From Candidatus Gastranaerophilales bacterium (GTDB lineage Bacteria; Cyanobacteriota; Vampirovibrionia; Gastranaerophilales; Gastranaerophilaceae): 64,000 nucleotides of DNA. The stretch lies in contig CANQMP010000005.1 in the NCBI GenBank assembly GCA_947624975.1, positions 1 through 64,000 of the forward strand. Reading direction: 5' to 3'. The position numbers were made by a program, and so were the translations under genes. Under the pieces are notes generated by a model. That model made no database searches. It was not told the origin of the DNA and was given only the letters and a program-made list of their open reading frames with translations. Position 1 is the first letter of the stretch. The number at the start of each line of letters is the position of its first letter. This document shows, piece by piece, positions 17,610-63,564 of this stretch.

Positions 17610-18585
17610 ATGAAGAAGATGACTATTAGTGCATTAAACCCATCGGGGGGGGGGGGCATTCCTTTGTGGTAAGGCTTTTGGGCAAATCAAGACATTAGTT
17701 TTTAAAAAGAAAAAATTTTCAAAACTTTTTTGGGTTGAGGAAAATGCCCTCATTCAAGAACCCGTCGCAACTAACCTTTTCAAAAAGATAGGAAACAAAT
17801 ATATTCCTTTTCTTGAAAAGGGGATATTTGAACATGGCAAACCTAAAAAAGTTGCCTTCACTTTAGCAGAAGTTTTAATTACTCTTGGCATAATCGGAGT
17901 TGTGGCGGCTTTGACAATTCCGACATTGATTAGCAAATATCAAAAAATGGTTTTTGTTACTAAAGCCAAACAAATATATAGTATTTTGTCCAATGCTTTA
18001 GTAACTTCTGTTGCTGAAAACGGACCTATGAGTGATTGGGTTTACGGTAGTGATAAAGAAAAATATAGTACAGATACGGAAAACGATTTAACATATATTG
18101 TTAATACCTATTTCAAACCTTATTTTAAAGTAGCGGAAGACATCGGGTATGATAAAGATATTGGTAATCGCTATTCTCTTTTACTGAATAATGGTATGAC
18201 TTTGACTTTTTCGTTAGACGGAAGTACAAACCCTATTACGAAAAAGTATCAATATCATGCTATATGGATTTTGGTTAGCAATAATAGAAATGCCACTTAT
18301 TTCACAGACAAAAGTCATGACTATTCAAGACATGACATGATGTTTGCTGTAGTCAAACCCACTATCAGTAAAAATTATAATAATGCTGTTTATCCTTTTG
18401 CATACTTCGATTCAGATAATTCTGCTTCGGCGTCGTATAGTTATACTAAAATCAAAAGCCGTGATGAACTGATAAATGGTAAGAAATATGGATGTAATAA
18501 AAATATAGATAAAAACAAAAGAGTAAATTGTACTGCATTAATGATGTGGGATGGCTGGCAGATAAAAGACGATTATCCATGGTAA
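17610..18585 (+). CDS. phase-variable prepilin 1 (OFF as recorded)
   Basis: A type II secretion/type IV-like prepilin whose only good start codon is cut off by a G run. From the ATG at 17610 (AAAGGA site) the frame reads MKKMTISALNPS, then glycines from 12 G, and stops at TAA 17672-17674. Removing one G (11, or 14) joins this start without any stop to an 82-residue leader and the pilin segment FTLAEVLITLGIIGVVAAL, ending at 18585. No in-frame ATG precedes the pilin helix. The mature part has the C-terminal WDGWQIKDDYPW seen in sister pilins. Class III-type cleavage before Phe would follow Ala rather than Gly. The product would be an inner-membrane or pilus-like surface subunit. A sequencing error in the G run is the alternative. 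Confidence 0.75.
17645..17656 (+). repeat. poly-G tract, 12 G, in prepilin 1
   Basis: Twelve G after AACCCATC. Eleven or fourteen would open the pilin frame; twelve gives an 21-codon peptide. Confidence 0.9.
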
Positions 18586-21755: not shown

Positions 21756-23133
21756 ATCCGATGAAATATTATCCAAAATCGCCGAAAGCTTTGATAATAA
21801 GGTTTATGTGGTAGGCGGAACGGTGAGGGATTATTTTTTTGATAAAAAAAGTCATGACCGTGATATTGTTGTTATTGATGAGGATGCACGGGAATTTGCC
21901 CTTAAACTTCAAAAATTGTTTAAAGCCTCTTTTGTTCCGCTGGATGAGGAAAATAAGATATACAGACTTGTTTTGCCCGACAAAATAAATTACATTGATG
22001 TTACAAATCCCGTGGGAGGCTCTATTGAAAAGGATTTGCAGCGAAGAGATTTGACGATTAACGCAGTTGCCGCCGATATTAAAACAGGTGATGTTATTGA
22101 TATTTTCGGCGGTGTAACGGATATTAAAAACAAATGTATTAACTATATTTTGGAGCAAAATTTTGAGGACGACCCGCTTAGATTATTGAGGGTGTACAGA
22201 TTTCAGGCATTATACGGGTTTGAGCTTTCTTCAGATACGGTTCATACCGTCTGCAAGTATGCAAAACTCGTGAATAAGCCTGCAAATGAGAGAATTATAT
22301 ACGAATTACAAAAACTCTTTGGCGGGAAATACACCCCTAAAGCACTTGAAAATATGGATAAAACAGGAGTTTTGGAGAAAATTTTCCCGTTTGTGAAGGA
22401 GTTAAAAAAAGTTCCGCCGAACTCTCATCATCATTTGGATTTGTTTCACCATTCGCTTGAAACTGTTCGACAAATTCAGTTTTTGTACGAGCAGGCATGT
22501 GATGAAGTTAAGGAACATCTTGACACGGTTGATTTTGGCGGATTTCCACGTCTTGTATATTTAAAACTCGCAGGTTTTATGCATGATATCGGAAAGTTTT
22601 CCGTTTGGACGATAGAAAATGGTCGTCACAGATTTATCAAGCATGATGATGTCGGGGCAAAGCTGGCTGCAAAACTGCTTAAAAAAATGAATTTTTCAAA
22701 CAAGGTTACGGAATATGTTTCGACAATGGTTAAGTATCATATTTATCCGTCGCATGTGGTTTCAGCGCCTGATGTTTCGGAAAAAACGATGATGCGGTTT
22801 GTGCGAAAATCCGATAAAAACGCTATTGATAATATTGTTCTTGCGATGGCTGACAGATTGTCCGCAAGAGGCCCTGAAATTACCGATGAAATCGTCAAAA
22901 ATAACATCGACTCGTTAAAAAAACTTCTGGATTTTTATCTTGAAAAACGTGAAACGCTTGAACCTTTGCCTAAATTGCTTGACGGAAACGATGTTATGAA
23001 ACTTTTAAACATCAAGCCGTCGCCGAAATTGGGCAAAATTCTTGATGCACTTTATGAAGCACAGCTTTCGGGAAATGTTACAACATTTGAGCAGGCACAA
23101 GAGTTTGTCAAAAACATGGGTAATCATCTTTAA
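21733..23133 (+). CDS. CCA tRNA nucleotidyltransferase / poly(A) polymerase family
   Basis: Class II nucleotidyltransferase, 466 residues. The head domain has GGTVRDYFF and DRDIVV, giving the catalytic carboxylates, then RRDLTINA and the nucleotide-recognition stretch DPLRLLRVYRF. A C-terminal HD phosphohydrolase domain with FMHDIGK is present, as in E. coli-type enzymes that also trim 2'-phosphates. It adds or repairs the CCA tail of tRNAs; a poly(A) polymerase activity cannot be excluded. Its start lies inside rsmE. Its stop overlaps the convergent prepilin gene by 26 bases. Confidence 0.9.
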   Translation: MNIIQNIKSDEILSKIAESFDNKVYVVGGTVRDYFFDKKSHDRDIVVIDEDAREFALKLQKLFKASFVPLDEENKIYRLVLPDKINYIDVTNPVGGSIEKDLQRRDLTINAVAADIKTGDVIDIFGGVTDIKNKCINYILEQNFEDDPLRLLRVYRFQALYGFELSSDTVHTVCKYAKLVNKPANERIIYELQKLFGGKYTPKALENMDKTGVLEKIFPFVKELKKVPPNSHHHLDLFHHSLETVRQIQFLYEQACDEVKEHLDTVDFGGFPRLVYLKLAGFMHDIGKFSVWTIENGRHRFIKHDDVGAKLAAKLLKKMNFSNKVTEYVSTMVKYHIYPSHVVSAPDVSEKTMMRFVRKSDKNAIDNIVLAMADRLSARGPEITDEIVKNNIDSLKKLLDFYLEKRETLEPLPKLLDGNDVMKLLNIKPSPKLGKILDALYEAQLSGNVTTFEQAQEFVKNMGNHL

Positions 23134-23785
23134 ATTCCCAGCCGTCCAGCATTAATAATACTCCGCATGCATTACATTTGGTTTTATTACAAGCGGCAAA
23201 CATCTTTTTCGTATTAGCTTCCAAATACTCGTAACCGTTAAAAATTTCCTCGCGGGTTAAGTTATCTTTCCAAGCTACGGGATAAAGACCTTTATTATTA
23301 ATAACGAAATAAAACTTATTTTTTCCCCATTTCTTCTTACCTCCTCCTATTCCAAAAACAACAGGATATAAGAAATCAACTTTTTGGTCTAATGCACCGC
23401 CTAATCCGAGGCTTATGCCATTATTCAATCTATAACCGACATCAAACTTACTTATGCCGACATAGCACTTAGAGTCCTTGTCGGGACATTCCGTATAATT
23501 TTTTAAGTAAGGGAGAATGTATTTTTCTGCGAATTCTCTATTTGATTCTTCAGATGAAGGATAACTATATGACCAGCAACTTATTGGTCCGTTATCAATT
23601 TGTGAAAGCCTTAAAGCCTGAGATAAAATTGAATATGCTTGTTTAAGACGTATAGCGACAGCTTTTTTCTCATAATTGCGAATTAATGTCGGAACTGTCA
23701 ACGCTGCCACAATGCCGATAACGCCTAGTGTTATTAAGACTTCGGCGAGTGTAAAACCTGTTTTTCCAGTGTTTTTATTAATCAT
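23108..23785 (-). CDS. prepilin-like protein 3
   Basis: 225 residues. A short basic leader ends in KTG and is followed by FTLAEVLITLGVIGIVAAL, the class III/type II pseudopilin hydrophobic helix; cleavage before Phe and N-methylation by a prepilin peptidase are expected. The C-terminal half contains paired cysteines (CNKTKCNAC) and ends LDGWEFKDDYPCF, a tail shared with the poly-G prepilins. The ATG at 23785 is chosen over 23800 because AAAGGAG lies just upstream. A divergent AbrB-like gene and palindromes lie in front of it, so it is probably regulated locally. No pilus assembly ATPase is in the window. Confidence 0.9.
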   Translation of the reverse strand: MINKNTGKTGFTLAEVLITLGVIGIVAALTVPTLIRNYEKKAVAIRLKQAYSILSQALRLSQIDNGPISCWSYSYPSSEESNREFAEKYILPYLKNYTECPDKDSKCYVGISKFDVGYRLNNGISLGLGGALDQKVDFLYPVVFGIGGGKKKWGKNKFYFVINNKGLYPVAWKDNLTREEIFNGYEYLEANTKKMFAACNKTKCNACGVLLMLDGWEFKDDYPCF

Positions 23786-23808
23786 TCTAGCTCCTTTCAT
23801 AACCTGTT

Positions 23809-23882: not shown

Positions 23883-24053
23883 ATGGAAAGAAAATTATTC
23901 AGAACAGGAAACGGGTGGTCATTATTTGTTCCGAAAGTTATTATCGAACTGTTGAAAATTGACCCCGAAAATGATTTAATTGAAATGCAAGTTGAAAATG
24001 ACATTTTGAAAATTAAAAGAGTAAATAATGAAAGCACTGATTCAAAGAGTTAA
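23883..24053 (+). CDS. AbrB/SpoVT-like DNA-binding protein
   Basis: A 56-residue swapped-hairpin type protein. The sequence [20 protein letters not shown] followed by [16 protein letters not shown] fits the beta-strand pattern of AbrB/MazE-type domains, which bind DNA as dimers. GAGG lies four bases before the ATG. It is divergent from prepilin 3, with palindromes between them, so it is a candidate repressor of that gene and of itself. It overlaps dtd by 26 bases. No toxin gene is adjacent, so an antitoxin role is less likely. Confidence 0.75.
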
Positions 24054-24465
24054 AGATGCCTCGGTGACGATTAACGGGGAACTTTTTTCCTCAATTCGGC
24101 AAGGATTGCTGGTTTTTCTCGGCGTTGAGAAAAATGATGAGAAAATTAACGCCGAAAAACTCGCTGATAAAATCTTAAAGTTACGAATTTTTGAAGATGA
24201 AAACGGAAAAATGAATCGCTCAATAAATGAGCTTAACGGAGAAATTCTTGTGGTTTCCCAATTTACCTTGTGCGGTGACTGCAAAAAAGGCACAAGACCT
24301 TCTTTTGACAACTCCGCAACTCCCGAAAAAGCCGTAAAACTTTATGAATACTTTGTCGAATGCGTTAAACAAAGCAAATTAAATGTTCAAACAGGCAAAT
24401 TCCGCGCCATGATGGATGTTAAGCTTACGAATGACGGCCCTGTAACCTTTTTTATAGAAAAATAA
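24028..24465 (+). CDS. dtd: D-aminoacyl-tRNA deacylase
   Basis: DTD, 145 residues, hydrolyses D-aminoacyl-tRNAs and also Gly-tRNA-Ala in the cytosol. The family motifs SQFTLCGD and the C-terminal Gly-cisPro loop NDGPVTFFI are intact, and the N-terminus [13 protein letters not shown] is canonical. The start lies within the AbrB-like gene, 26 bases before its stop, so coupling is likely. Confidence 0.96.
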
Positions 24466-24584
24466 TAATATTACTTGCAAAAATTTTTGAACTGTGGTAT
24501 TATATAATATATTATTATAATAATTTTCCATTTTGATTGAGGAGAAATTTAACCTGGAATTACTTAATTAAGAGGCTTATCAAT

Positions 24585-25466
24585 ATGTATGTAAACAAGT
24601 GTATCAAATGTGGTCGTGAGTTTGAAACCAAAAACCCCAAAAGAGTCATATGTCCTGACTGTCTTTATCCCGATAAGAGCATGATGCTTACTTCGGGTTC
24701 ACAAACTCCCCCCGAAGAACCCCTAAAAGGCTACAGTGCCGGAGGCAGTGAAGAAGCGCCCCGCTATTACAGTGCAGGCGGTGACGAGGAACAACAACAT
24801 TTTCAGAAAAGACCGTATAACAACCCGAATAACAGAAATCGCCAACAGCAAAACAGAGGCGGATTCAACAGAAATCAGGGCGGTTACAACAGAAACCGTC
24901 AGGGCGGAGGATTTAACAGACCGCAAGGTAACAGAAACGGCGGATTTAACAGAAATCAGGGCGGATTTAATAAAAAACGCCCGCAGCAGCGTAAAGCTCC
25001 GAAACAGTTACTCGTAAGTAAAGAACAACTTGAACAAATCGAAACACTTTATAGAGCCATGCTTCCGCTTCCAAATCCGGACTGCCACGAAGTTATCGGT
25101 GAAAAAATCGGACTTGAACCAAGAAAAGTGTTCTTCGGTATTAATCTCGTAAGACAAAAAATGATGCTTCCGAAATTGCCGTTCCCGAAACGTAAACTCG
25201 CAATTTCGCCCGATCAGCTTTTTGCGATTAGAAATTTGTATGAACCTTTACTTCCGCTTCCTCCTATCGGATGCCATAAAATTATTGCGGCTCAGTTGAA
25301 AATGGATGAGTGGAGAGTTCACGTCGGAATAGCTCTTGTACGTTCTCAAATGGGACTTGAAAGATGGAATGAGGACAGAACGGATATTCCCGAAGAACTG
25401 AAAAAACGTATGAAAAAATCCGAAGATGAAACCAAAAAAGCCGACAAAACAAAAGAAGATGTCTAA
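24585..25466 (+). CDS. zinc-ribbon, RGG-rich putative RNA-binding protein
   Basis: 293 residues from the ATG at 24585, which fits better than an upstream TTG because the zinc ribbon starts at once. Residues 5-24 hold two CxxC pairs (CIKC, CPDC). A low-complexity segment of about 90 residues is rich in G, N, R and Q with repeated GGFNRN, typical of RNA-binding tails. The C-terminal part is two homologous repeats of about 60 residues, each with LPLP, then a CH pair and a VRxxM stretch. It sits directly before rimM and trmD, one base short of overlap, which suggests a ribosome or RNA role. No named family recognised. Confidence 0.75.
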   Translation: MYVNKCIKCGREFETKNPKRVICPDCLYPDKSMMLTSGSQTPPEEPLKGYSAGGSEEAPRYYSAGGDEEQQHFQKRPYNNPNNRNRQQQNRGGFNRNQGGYNRNRQGGGFNRPQGNRNGGFNRNQGGFNKKRPQQRKAPKQLLVSKEQLEQIETLYRAMLPLPNPDCHEVIGEKIGLEPRKVFFGINLVRQKMMLPKLPFPKRKLAISPDQLFAIRNLYEPLLPLPPIGCHKIIAAQLKMDEWRVHVGIALVRSQMGLERWNEDRTDIPEELKKRMKKSEDETKKADKTKEDV

Positions 25467-25973
25467 ATGGAAAATTATGTTTCTGTTGGAAAAATTCTGA
25501 ATTTTCACGGGATTAAGGGGCATGCCAGAGTCGGTTATTCAAGAAAAGATTTTTTGGCATCGCTTATTGATGTTTTTATAAAGTCAGGAAGTGATTACCT
25601 GCCTTTTGAAATTGAAGATATTAGGTTTCAGAAGAATTTCGCAATAATAAAATTCCGTGAGATAAATTCAATTAATGATTTATTGCCCTATAAAGGCTCT
25701 TTTATCTGTGTAAAAGAGGAGGTCGTTCGGGAAAATCTTGAAGATGATGAGTTTCTTATTGATGAGCTTGTGAGTCTTGAGGTATTTGACGAAGAAGGCA
25801 AAAAACTCGGATTTGTTGTCGGAGTTTCCAACAACGGGGCAAACGATTTGTTATCCGTGAGAACAAATTCCAAAAAAGTCGCACTAATCCCGTTTGTTAA
25901 AGCTATTGTTACCGATGTCAGCATAAAAGAAAAAAGAATTACGATTAACAACATCGAGGGGCTTTTGCAATGA
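25467..25973 (+). CDS. rimM: ribosome maturation factor RimM
   Basis: RimM, 168 residues, assists assembly of the 30S head by binding S19. The N-terminal beta-barrel starts VSVGKILNFHGIKGHARV, and a PRC-barrel follows with LLSVRTNSKKVALIPFV. Its ATG follows the RGG-protein stop at once, and its end overlaps trmD by four bases (ATGA), the usual rimM-trmD arrangement. Confidence 0.94.
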   Translation: MENYVSVGKILNFHGIKGHARVGYSRKDFLASLIDVFIKSGSDYLPFEIEDIRFQKNFAIIKFREINSINDLLPYKGSFICVKEEVVRENLEDDEFLIDELVSLEVFDEEGKKLGFVVGVSNNGANDLLSVRTNSKKVALIPFVKAIVTDVSIKEKRITINNIEGLLQ

Positions 25974-26668
25974 GATTTGAAGTCATGACATTATTTCCCG
26001 AAATGATTCAAAGTGCATGCTCATTCAGTATTATGAAACGTGCTGTTGAAAACGGAGTTTTTGACGTAAACACGGTTAATCCGAGAGATTTTACTCTTGA
26101 TAAACATAAAAAAGCCGACGATACGCCTTACGGCGGAGGTGCGGGCATGGTGTTGAAGGTTCAGCCGTTTGTTGATGCTTTCGAAAGTATTCAAAAAACC
26201 GATAATTCAATAACAGTAATGCTTTCCCCTCAAGGTAAACCGCTTGATGATGCAAAAGTTAACGAACTTGCAAATTATAATCAAATAATCTTGATTTGCG
26301 GACATTACGAGGGTTTTGATGAAAGAATAAGAGAAATAATTAAACCCGTTGAAGTTTCTGTTGGGGATTTTGTGATGACGGGTGGGGAGCTGCCTGCACT
26401 CTGCCTTATTGATGCGGTCAGCAGAAAGCTTGAAGGGACTCTGGGAAAAATCGAATCCGCTTGTGAAGATACGTTTTCCAACGGACTTGTTGAATATCCG
26501 CATTACACAAAGCCCAGAGAATTCAGAGGTCTAAAAGTTCCCGAGGTTCTCTTAAACGGTAATCACAAGGAAATAAATGAATTCCGACTTCAAAAAAGTC
26601 TTGAACGCACAAAAGAGAAACGCCCCGACCTTTACGAAAAATATTTGAAAAATCACCTTGATAAATAA
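25970..26668 (+). CDS. trmD: tRNA (guanine-37-N1)-methyltransferase
   Basis: TrmD, 232 residues, makes m1G37 in tRNAs reading CNN codons, preventing frameshifts. The trefoil-knot SAM site is seen in ICGHYEGFDERI and VSVGDFVMTGGELPA, and the opening MRFEVMTLFPEMI is canonical. It is coupled to rimM. rpsP and rplS, often in the same operon, are not present here. Confidence 0.97.
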   Translation: MRFEVMTLFPEMIQSACSFSIMKRAVENGVFDVNTVNPRDFTLDKHKKADDTPYGGGAGMVLKVQPFVDAFESIQKTDNSITVMLSPQGKPLDDAKVNELANYNQIILICGHYEGFDERIREIIKPVEVSVGDFVMTGGELPALCLIDAVSRKLEGTLGKIESACEDTFSNGLVEYPHYTKPREFRGLKVPEVLLNGNHKEINEFRLQKSLERTKEKRPDLYEKYLKNHLDK

Positions 26669-42254: not shown

Positions 42255-43613
42255 ATGGGTATGGCAGCATCACAAGCCAGATACTTAGGCTTGACGGCAA
42301 GAAAAACTAACGTAGAATATGAAGGACAACAGGTTAACCAGGCACGTACGGCACTTGCAAACCAGAGTGCGAACACATTTAATGATTTGCTTGCCTTAGA
42401 AGTTCCGACTGCTCCAAGTACGCAAGATTACACTACTTTACAGTATTCTTATCAAGATGGATTAACGACTGAAACAATATCAAATATGTCGGAACTAATT
42501 AATGATCCCGACGGCTATAATTATTTAATTACACATTACCATTATTCTGATATTTATACAGGTATAAGAATAAAAAGAGATAATCCGCAAGTTATTTTGG
42601 AAGACAATCCTGTTGAAAAAAGCATTAGTGTAAATGGTGAAAATGATGAAAAAATCACTGTAACAAAAAAGAATGGTAGTGACGACGACGATGATAACCA
42701 AGGATATTCAATTAATGGTCATGATTTAACTAAATATGATCCAAGTGAGAATACAGATGAAAAAGTGACTGGAGCTTTTAATAAACTCAAGGAACAATAT
42801 TCGAATTTGGATGAAGATAAAACTTATTACATGATACAAGATGGCGATCAGGTTTATTTCTTTGATGAGGATACTTTAAAGGCATTGTCTGAAACTTCGG
42901 AAACCGGTGACACCGATGCAGATTCAGATACTGATGCTGATAGTGATGCTGAGGCAGTAAATGAATTAAAATATTACACTGTAGAACCCGGTGTACCAAA
43001 GTATGTAGGCAACTCTCAGGTTCGTAAATACGATCCTACCAATACATCGGAGAAAGCAGCTTATGAACAGATATGTAAAGATTTACCTGATGAATCATTT
43101 GCAAAAGCTGAGGAATCCGATATTTATGTTTGGGATTATCAAGGCAGGACTTATTTCGGAACTTATGATGATTTAGTTGCTACAGCTAAAAGTGCACCCG
43201 ACCCTTCTAAACCCACAGAAAATCAAAGTAAGTTGACGGAATATTATGCAGAAAACGTATCTACTAAGATTGAACGTCAGGAAAAGGCATTTGTTGATCT
43301 TGATGATAAAGGACGTCCCCAATCAATCAGGTTTGAGGATAGTACTGCTACTTACGCTTTGAGTACTGAAACCAAAACGGACGAAGCTGCCTATCAAGAT
43401 GCGATGAACCAATATAACTACGATATGCAGGTTTATGAAAAGAAAATTGCAGATATCAACGCTAAAACGAAAAAAATTCAGGAACAGGACAGAACTCTTG
43501 AACTTCGTTTAAGACAGCTTGACACGGAGCAAGAGGCACTTCAAACCGAAATGGAAGCGGTTAAAAAAGTTATTGATAAAAACATTGAATCAACATTTAA
43601 AACATTTGAATAG
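42255..43613 (+). CDS. unknown protein, long form (GMAASQAR family)
   Basis: 452 residues with GAGGAG before the ATG. The N-terminus MGMAASQARYLGLTARKTNV and the C-terminal coiled coil (LRQLDTEQEALQTEMEAVKK, then DKNIESTF) are matched by the 110-residue protein at 44889, which lacks the centre. The central 300 residues are acidic, with a run TGDTDADSDTDADSDA near residue 218 and YYTVEPGVPKYVG-like stretches. No signal peptide. I recognise the N-terminus as widespread in gut Melainabacteria-like genomes, but no function is known to me; a filament- or needle-like assembly is only a guess. Confidence 0.75.
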   Translation: MGMAASQARYLGLTARKTNVEYEGQQVNQARTALANQSANTFNDLLALEVPTAPSTQDYTTLQYSYQDGLTTETISNMSELINDPDGYNYLITHYHYSDIYTGIRIKRDNPQVILEDNPVEKSISVNGENDEKITVTKKNGSDDDDDNQGYSINGHDLTKYDPSENTDEKVTGAFNKLKEQYSNLDEDKTYYMIQDGDQVYFFDEDTLKALSETSETGDTDADSDTDADSDAEAVNELKYYTVEPGVPKYVGNSQVRKYDPTNTSEKAAYEQICKDLPDESFAKAEESDIYVWDYQGRTYFGTYDDLVATAKSAPDPSKPTENQSKLTEYYAENVSTKIERQEKAFVDLDDKGRPQSIRFEDSTATYALSTETKTDEAAYQDAMNQYNYDMQVYEKKIADINAKTKKIQEQDRTLELRLRQLDTEQEALQTEMEAVKKVIDKNIESTFKTFE

Positions 43614-44888: not shown

Positions 44889-45221
44889 ATGGGTTTATGT
44901 GTAGCGCAAATCAGAGTAATGTATCTTTTAAGGGCAAGACTTGATTTGGAATACAAAATTATGCTTGTCACTCAGGCAAAATCAAACTTGTCAGCTTCCG
45001 TAACCGATTTAATGCAAATCGGTAATGATATGTCTGATCCCGATAACCCGACTGCAAAACTTTTACAGCAGCGTCAGGCAAAACTTAAAGTTTTGGAAGA
45101 AAAACTTGATGCACAACTGGCTGCTTATAATACAAGATTAAAAATGATAGAAACAGAATATGAATCCGCCGTAGCTGTTCGTGATAAAAATATTGAGCGC
45201 TCATTCTCTTACGGCAGATAA
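44889..45221 (+). CDS. unknown protein, short form (GMAASQAR family)
   Basis: 110 residues, AAAGGAAAC before the ATG. The N-terminus MGLCVAQIRVMYLLRARLDL aligns with the start of the 42255 protein and the C-terminus DKNIERSFSYGR with its end; between them lies a coiled coil (LLQQRQAKLKVLEEKLDAQL). It therefore looks like a minimal version with the long centre missing. No function known. It lies 12 bases after the small basic gene. Confidence 0.7.
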   Translation: MGLCVAQIRVMYLLRARLDLEYKIMLVTQAKSNLSASVTDLMQIGNDMSDPDNPTAKLLQQRQAKLKVLEEKLDAQLAAYNTRLKMIETEYESAVAVRDKNIERSFSYGR

Positions 45222-62843: not shown

Positions 62844-63564
62844 AGTGTGAATACACATACTTTATCATTTGTGACGTGGAGCGTCCGCCCTTTTCTAATG
62901 GCATACAGCCTCCCGAATTTTCAAGGTAAAATTTATTACCGTCAAAAAATAAATAAAAATAAAATACATCATGTCCCCATTTGTTAGGTCCTTTCATCCC
63001 GTTAATGTCAACGATTGTATTTACGGCAATTCGTTGATTTCCATCGCCTACAGAAGGCATTATTATTGTTCCGTCTTGTAAAATATAAGCAGGATAGTTT
63101 TTTAAAGATTCAGAACTTAAGTTTGTGCAGCCTTTCATACTGTTATTTACTTCATCATCATCCATATCAGGATTATTTTCTTTTTTTACTTTTTCCCACC
63201 CTTTGTATTCAGGTATGCATCTATTTTGCATTGCATTATTTCCACAATTTTCAGCTATTTTTAATTGCTCTAAAAATATTTTTGAATAAGTAGGACAATC
63301 GCTATAATTATCTGCATATCCACCGTAGCCATAATAACATAGCGGATTTGTTCCCCATTGGTATCTGGCTGCAACGTGAGCATTACTTAAAGTTGAGTAT
63401 ACTTTTTTAAATTGGTTATTAAAAACATTTTGTTTATAATCGTTTATTAAGCCGGGCATAGTCAGTGCTGCCACAATACCGATAACTGCCAGTGTAATCA
63501 ATGTTTCCGCAAGTGTGAAACCTATGTGTGTTGAAATTCGTTTGCAAAAATTCTTTTTATTCAT
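62842..63564 (-). CDS. prepilin-like protein 4
   Basis: 240 residues. Leader MNKKNFCKRISTHIG, then the pilin helix FTLAETLITLAVIGIVAAL; Gly before Phe fits prepilin peptidase cleavage. The mature part has several cysteine pairs (NSGGCMPL near the end) and ends with MIKYVYSH; it lacks the WxxxxDYP tail of prepilins 1-3. AAAGGAT precedes the ATG. A divergent XRE regulator and two palindromes lie upstream. Probably a pilus or pseudopilus subunit in the inner membrane and envelope. Confidence 0.9.
   Translation of the reverse strand: MNKKNFCKRISTHIGFTLAETLITLAVIGIVAALTMPGLINDYKQNVFNNQFKKVYSTLSNAHVAARYQWGTNPLCYYGYGGYADNYSDCPTYSKIFLEQLKIAENCGNNAMQNRCIPEYKGWEKVKKENNPDMDDDEVNNSMKGCTNLSSESLKNYPAYILQDGTIIMPSVGDGNQRIAVNTIVDINGMKGPNKWGHDVFYFYLFFDGNKFYLENSGGCMPLEKGGRSTSQMIKYVYSH

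Follow-up and report, generated by a model that had tools for sequence, protein, structure and literature searches.

The described systems closest to the protein considered here are the eukaryotic double homeodomains, HTH proteins of the LuxR/NarL type, the CarD protein of Myxococcus, and eukaryotic RGG proteins of the FUS/hnRNP type. Myxococcus CarD joins an RNA polymerase-binding N-terminal domain to an HMGA-like AT-hook C-terminus that is intrinsically unfolded (PMC4374960), the AT-hook itself consisting of a GRP core with basic residues at its flanks (PMC11354804). The locus described here lies in a stretch of 64,000 nucleotides (hereafter, the window; positions 1 to 64,000 of contig CANQMP010000005.1, forward strand) from the genome of a Candidatus Gastranaerophilales bacterium, a non-photosynthetic member of the Cyanobacteriota. 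The Gastranaerophilales, relatives of cyanobacteria that are common in the gut, are a group in which, to our knowledge, almost no gene regulation has been studied experimentally, and our literature search found no paper tying the lineage to a protein of this kind. We regard the 293-aa protein encoded in the window as a lineage-specific nucleic acid-binding protein of the Gastranaerophilales and their nearest relatives, most likely one that binds DNA via tandem HTHs, a reading to which we give an even chance.

The protein consists of a zinc ribbon, a Gly/Arg-rich disordered tether, and a three-helix domain that is present twice (Table 1), and this layout is real: the ribbon, repeats, and duplicated domain that led the initial annotation to call the architecture unusual were all recovered, by ORF analysis and alignment, where it had placed them. 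Its two CxxC pairs are C6/C9 and C23/C26, and its two 60-residue copies contain LPLPNPDCH and LPLPPIGCH, respectively; where it counted about 90 residues of GGFNRN-like sequence, the disordered part spans some 104 residues, with the densest repeats at residues ~90 to 133. The mechanical start of the ORF is a TTG at 24537, and Met1 at 24585 is invariant in a 23-row alignment. Across several families, the folded parts show 78 to 81% mean column identity, and searches of Pfam, NCBIfam, and the PDB with the full-length window protein returned nothing above cut-offs.

Table 1. Features of the 293-aa protein gene and its surroundings in the window (leader, protein segments, and neighboring genes)
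Feature	Coordinates	Strand	Basis
dtd (D-aminoacyl-tRNA deacylase)	24028..24465	+	Upstream ORF; named from sequence
Sigma-70-like promoter, TG before -10 (TTGCAA-17-TATTAT)	24475..24503	+	Pattern scan; hexamer alignment
Leader element TTAATTAAGAGGCTT covering ribosome-binding site	24564..24578	+	Conserved across family loci
293-aa protein gene	24585..25466	+	ATG-started ORF
N-terminal zinc ribbon, residues 1-32	24585..24680	+	Alignment; AlphaFold pLDDT 77-89
Disordered tether, residues 34-137	24684..24995	+	AlphaFold pLDDT <50; composition
Homeodomain-like tri-helical HTH, copy 1	25002..25178	+	Alignments, AlphaFold, profile comparison
Basic linker around invariant PKR	25179..25190	+	Alignment; corresponds in place to the N-terminal arm of a homeodomain, ahead of copy 2
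Homeodomain-like tri-helical HTH, copy 2, with invariant WN..R.D extension	25191..25367	+	Alignments, AlphaFold, profile comparison
Charged C-terminal tail	25392..25463	+	Composition; AT-hook-like in most relatives, absent from window protein
rimM	25467..25973	+	PF01782; immediately downstream of 293-aa gene
trmD	25970..26668	+	ORF; named from sequence

The zinc ribbon follows the pattern MYxNxCxKCGxEFETKNPKRVICPxCLYP, in which FETKNP and R20 are invariant. No closely similar ribbon occurs elsewhere in 27 genomes; in those that lack the family, the best match reached only E = 0.017, and the idea of a ribbon common to other proteins was rejected on these grounds. The tether is rich in G, N, Q, R, and Y and carries a net positive charge; across relatives, it ranges from 81 to 230 aa and varies in sequence while keeping its cationic, G/Q/R/Y-rich make-up, with a bias that depends on lineage (N-rich in the close family, f1, and P/G-rich in families f9 and f15). 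The initial annotation had considered the protein possibly phase-separating; what the sequences show in this respect is a disordered region whose G/R/Y/Q/N-rich composition is conserved.

Copies 1 and 2 of the C-terminal domain are 40% identical over 53 residues (BLASTP E = 1e-9), and their profiles match at 98.8% (P = 1.5e-16), values that argue for duplication rather than chance. In 26 diverse rows, the tandem domain shows 78% mean column identity and 40 invariant columns, including LPLPNPD, PKR, EWR, and WN..R.D. Elsewhere in the class, no single-domain relatives were found; it is always the same protein with two copies. The "CH" in each repeat was rejected as a metal-binding motif: its His is conserved, and its Cys is replaced by A, V, I, or F in relatives.

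The initial annotation had proposed that the duplicated domain be modeled. AlphaFold (24 sequences) yields two three-helix units (pLDDT 80.6), in each of which a short turn separates helix 2 from helix 3; the helices of the tandem model span residues 6-17, 27-35, and 39-52 and then 69-82, 90-98, and 102-115, so that the H1-loop-H2-turn-H3 spacing is that of a homeodomain. The Pfam Homeodomain profile (PF00046) is the sole HTH family matched, by 22 of 26 members (best E = 1.1e-6). Whole-protein scores, with both copies summed, exceed the cut-off of 22.9 bits in two of ten members scanned individually (28.7 and 23.1 bits), whereas the best single-domain score (21.2 bits) falls below it; a genome-level search gave three matches at E ≤ 0.01, all of them to this protein and none above cut-off. 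Homeobox proteins are also the top sequence-profile matches in the PDB, at values that are not significant. In Foldseek searches of the PDB, the first five hits of the tandem model are DUX4 double homeodomains, followed by tandem engrailed, and DUX4 entries again lead for the full-length model, although the E-values are only 0.05 to 0.15. Single homeodomains fit at an rmsd of 2.5 to 3 (goosecoid and CRX at 2.5 to 2.8); against double homeodomains, the whole pair fits at ~13, the orientation of the two domains being different. HHalign, with P values that serve as a ranking only, places the homeodomain first (5e-5), the LuxR-type HTH second (3e-4, over 27 columns), and sigma region 4 third (0.012). 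A Foldseek search of phage proteins returned only generic HTH proteins.

The helix-3 signature of homeodomains, WFxNxR (W48, F49, N51, R53), is absent: positions 48, 49, and 51 are occupied by G, I, and L (copy 1 having Gly at 48 and Leu at 51), which makes the base-reading face unlike that of any homeodomain. The sole signature residue kept is the phosphate-contacting Arg 53, invariant in both copies. Since single-domain scores lie below the cut-off and WFxNxR is lacking, we call the domain homeodomain-like, not a homeodomain. At E ≤ 10, the tandem domains match neither GerE (PF00196; each copy has three helices, not four) nor RRM, KH, CSD, S1-type, or other RNA-binding families; neither Pfam nor NCBIfam detects a CarD_CdnL domain, and TF_Zn_Ribbon of TFIIB is not matched. 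The repeats are three-helix units, unlike the cyclin folds of TFIIB-like factors. These computed comparisons suggest a tri-helical HTH that resembles the homeodomain first and the LuxR-type HTH second. The initial annotation had named a gene order that is not conserved, together with a match of the duplicated domain to a non-RNA family, as the outcome that would count against its reading. Outside the close family the gene order does break down (see below), and the domain comparisons lean toward a non-RNA family, with DNA-binding folds at the top of the Foldseek list and no RNA-binding family matched.

Beyond copy 2, most proteins of the close family (112 of 124) end in a basic tail of RGRKP or RGRP type (as in KRGRKPKK). 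The RGRKP variant prevails in f1; canonical KRGRPKK occurs in nine f1 members and, as PKKRGRPKK, in both full-length members of f14. An AT-hook-like tail is missing from the window protein, from f9 and f15, and from most of the order outside f1, which marks it as an accessory feature.

The protein itself is widespread within its lineage. Among the matches listed, the nearest entries that bear a name are MAGs of Candidatus Gastranaerophilales. Of 58 sampled relative genomes, 51 carry the protein, as do all 41 order members of at least 90% completeness, in single copy; the order members without it are all less than 90% complete. At the level of the class, it is present in 115 of 194 sampled genomes, namely, in all listed f1 members, the sampled order member, and three further families (f9, f14, and f15), whereas the listed f8 and f10 to f13 members lack it. 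None of the photosynthetic cyanobacteria in the phylum sample has it. When 84,980 species genomes were scanned with a degenerate pattern, 427 relatives were recovered, the best 80 of which were examined. Phages, plasmids, and viral contigs yielded no relatives, and a mobile or phage origin was rejected on this basis.

The initial annotation had read the position next to rimM and trmD as a sign of an RNA- or ribosome-linked protein and had suggested gene order as a check. Within the close family, the arrangement holds: among the best 80 of the 427 matches, rimM lies directly downstream in 79 of 79 f1 loci, trmD lies within 1.5 kb in 78, and dtd is adjacent upstream in 63. It does not extend further. 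At least two deeper f1 genera (L031 and L077) are without rimM adjacency, other families of the order retain dtd at most, and rimM is on another contig or far off in all four tested genomes of other families. Loci of f9, f14, and f15 have unrelated neighbor genes, and beyond close relatives the neighbors include sdaA, queA, gatB, secE-nusG, rpsF, infC/rplT, yebC, and others. The link to rimM-trmD is thus a family-level arrangement, and its loss in the deeper genera and in the other families makes it a weak argument for a role at the ribosome.

No rpsP precedes rimM-trmD (25467-26668) in the window; it resides on a different contig of the same genome, which implies that this lineage has split up what is usually an rpsP-rimM-trmD operon. 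In other bacteria, this operon slot is often filled by KhpA, a KH-domain RNA-binding protein. KhpA was rejected as a candidate, there being no family match over cut-off in nine genomes and rpsP and rimM being on separate contigs. Pilin-like proteins with N-termini of the form GFTLAEVLITLxVIGIVAALT are encoded at 23108-23800 (-), 17902-18582 (+), and 62845-63564 (-), and such proteins also flank the dtd-rimM locus in many relatives. Proteins starting with MGMAASQARYLGLTARK occur twice in the window (42255-43610 and 44889-45218), and a member of this family also sits beside the zinc-ribbon gene in the distant relative L061 (4189-4515).

Between dtd and the 293-aa gene, f1 loci share a conserved promoter and leader. 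The promoter pattern scan has a high chance rate; nevertheless, the hexamers align across many family loci. The element TTAATTAAGAGGCTT has exactly one exact match in the genome, and 108 of 125 family loci preserve AATTAAGAGGCTT, which immediately precedes the start codon, while the bases around it drift; other genes of the window genome mostly have AAAGGAG-type ribosome-binding sites. From these sequence patterns, TTAATTAAGAGGCTT/AATTAAGAGGCTT may be an autoregulatory site. Order relatives have AAGGGGC near the same place instead of TTAATTAAGAGGCTT, and complementary GCAAGG and CCTTGC segments ~50 nt apart precede the start codon in several of these relatives (L036, L038, L039, L042, and L046), for whose leaders no consensus structure is predicted. 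A conserved RNA structure in the leader was rejected: none is predicted, single-sequence folds are unremarkable, and Rfam has no match within the window. Codon bias (CAI 0.67, rank 16 of 64; window genes have 0.64 and ribosomal proteins 0.73) does not support expression at the level of ribosomal proteins and, being only mildly above average, gives no pointer to an abundant nucleoid protein.

Because the domain is most like a double homeodomain, a DNA-binding protein of transcription or the chromosome is more likely than a ribosome factor; DNA is favored over RNA by the fold resemblance, by the basic arm that precedes copy 2, and by the AT-hook-like tails. It counts against this reading that tethers of the RGG type are familiar mainly from RNA-binding proteins, and HTH folds can bind RNA. 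The main rival, an RNA-binding protein or hnRNP-like RNA chaperone that perhaps acts alongside RimM and TrmD as ribosomes or tRNAs mature, would use the tether and ribbon to bind RNA and the tandem domains to bind RNA or a ribosomal protein. This we find doubtful, even though rimM-trmD is co-directional and adjoining in all 79 close-family loci among the best 80 of 427 matches, the tether is cationic and RGG/GGY-rich, the gene is elsewhere often near translation genes (infC/rplT, rpsF-ssb, gatB, and yebC), and the conserved element that covers its own ribosome-binding site could act in the mRNA as an autogenous site. The operon link is confined to one family, with rimM far off in others; no RNA-binding family was matched; profile comparison and fold search of the domain both lead to DNA-binding HTHs; and the leader has no conserved RNA structure.

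Two other explanations have less in their favor. The HTH-like units could have lost nucleic acid binding and the protein could organize a complex or condensate, as would suit homeodomain base-contact positions that are hydrophobic or replaced and a conservation peak at the LPLPNPD loop, which joins helix 1 to helix 2, and not at the recognition helix alone; however, the conserved basic linker, the Arg 53 invariant in both copies, and the basic tether and tails make such a protein-protein scaffold quite unlikely. We judge about as unlikely a basal transcription-like factor of TFIIB/sigma layout, whose ribbon would dock RNA polymerase, whose linker would thread nearby, and whose HTH repeats would hold promoter DNA. 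The order of zinc ribbon, linker, and two imperfect HTH-bearing repeats fits such a factor, as do its universality and single copy and the weak resemblance of the ribbon to models of archaeal RNA polymerase subunit P (E = 0.004), but this last match is far under its cut-off, the repeats are tri-helical units of 60 aa rather than 90-aa cyclin folds, no TFIIB or sigma family is matched (sigma region 4 being a poor profile match), and the gene's own promoter looks like an ordinary sigma-70 type.

Under the DNA-binding reading that we prefer, the two tandem homeodomain-like HTH units, joined by the basic PKR linker, would grip DNA, and in many species the AT-hook-like C-terminal tail would add a minor-groove contact. 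The cationic G/R/Y/Q/N-rich tether, conserved in composition, would connect the HTHs to the N-terminal zinc ribbon, which could dock an invariant partner, RNA polymerase being the simplest candidate. That the protein is universal, single-copy, and near-invariant in its folded parts suggests that its role is global, as a general factor of transcription or of the nucleoid, and not limited to the control of one operon. We infer DNA rather than RNA as the ligand, as we do the docking of a partner and the global role. The fullest version, a global factor of transcription or the chromosome that would share its build with eukaryotic double-homeodomain proteins, with an RNA polymerase-docking ribbon, a possibly condensate-forming tether, and HTHs plus AT-hook on DNA, we consider unlikely.

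All well-sampled members carry the protein as a single copy, its folded parts are ~80% identical between families, and no curated family covers it, which together make it a strong core-factor candidate. Should it bind DNA, bacteria would have in it a counterpart to regulators that combine tandem homeodomains with a disordered tether; should it bind RNA, it would be a bacterial RGG protein whose fold context is new. A global factor in the double-homeodomain style would amount to a basal regulator confined to the non-photosynthetic lineage of the Gastranaerophilales.

Like the DUX4 double homeodomain (PDB 5zfy, 6u81, and 6e8c; PF00046), the protein has two tandem three-helix HTHs with a basic arm before the second; unlike DUX4, it is bacterial, lacks WFxNxR, has invariant LPLPNPD and LPxPPIG loops, joins its HTHs to a zinc ribbon and RGG tether, and has single-domain scores below the Pfam cut-off. 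The LuxR/NarL-type HTH is the second-best HTH profile match, and NarL (PDB 1je8) fits one copy at an rmsd of ~3, but the LuxR HTH has four helices, its helix 1 and loop have no match here, and GerE is not matched. The likeness to eukaryotic FUS/hnRNP-type RGG proteins lies in a long, disordered, G/R/Y/Q-rich segment beside folded modules and a zinc motif, whereas here there is neither an RRM nor a RanBP2-type zinc finger and the tether residues shift with lineage. Myxococcus CarD, in which a folded N-terminal docking module is followed by an unfolded AT-hook DNA-binding part, is similar to the logic that we propose for our protein, and differs in that the protein described here has a zinc ribbon and tandem HTHs in place of a CarD_CdnL domain, and its AT-hook-like tail is not universal in the family.
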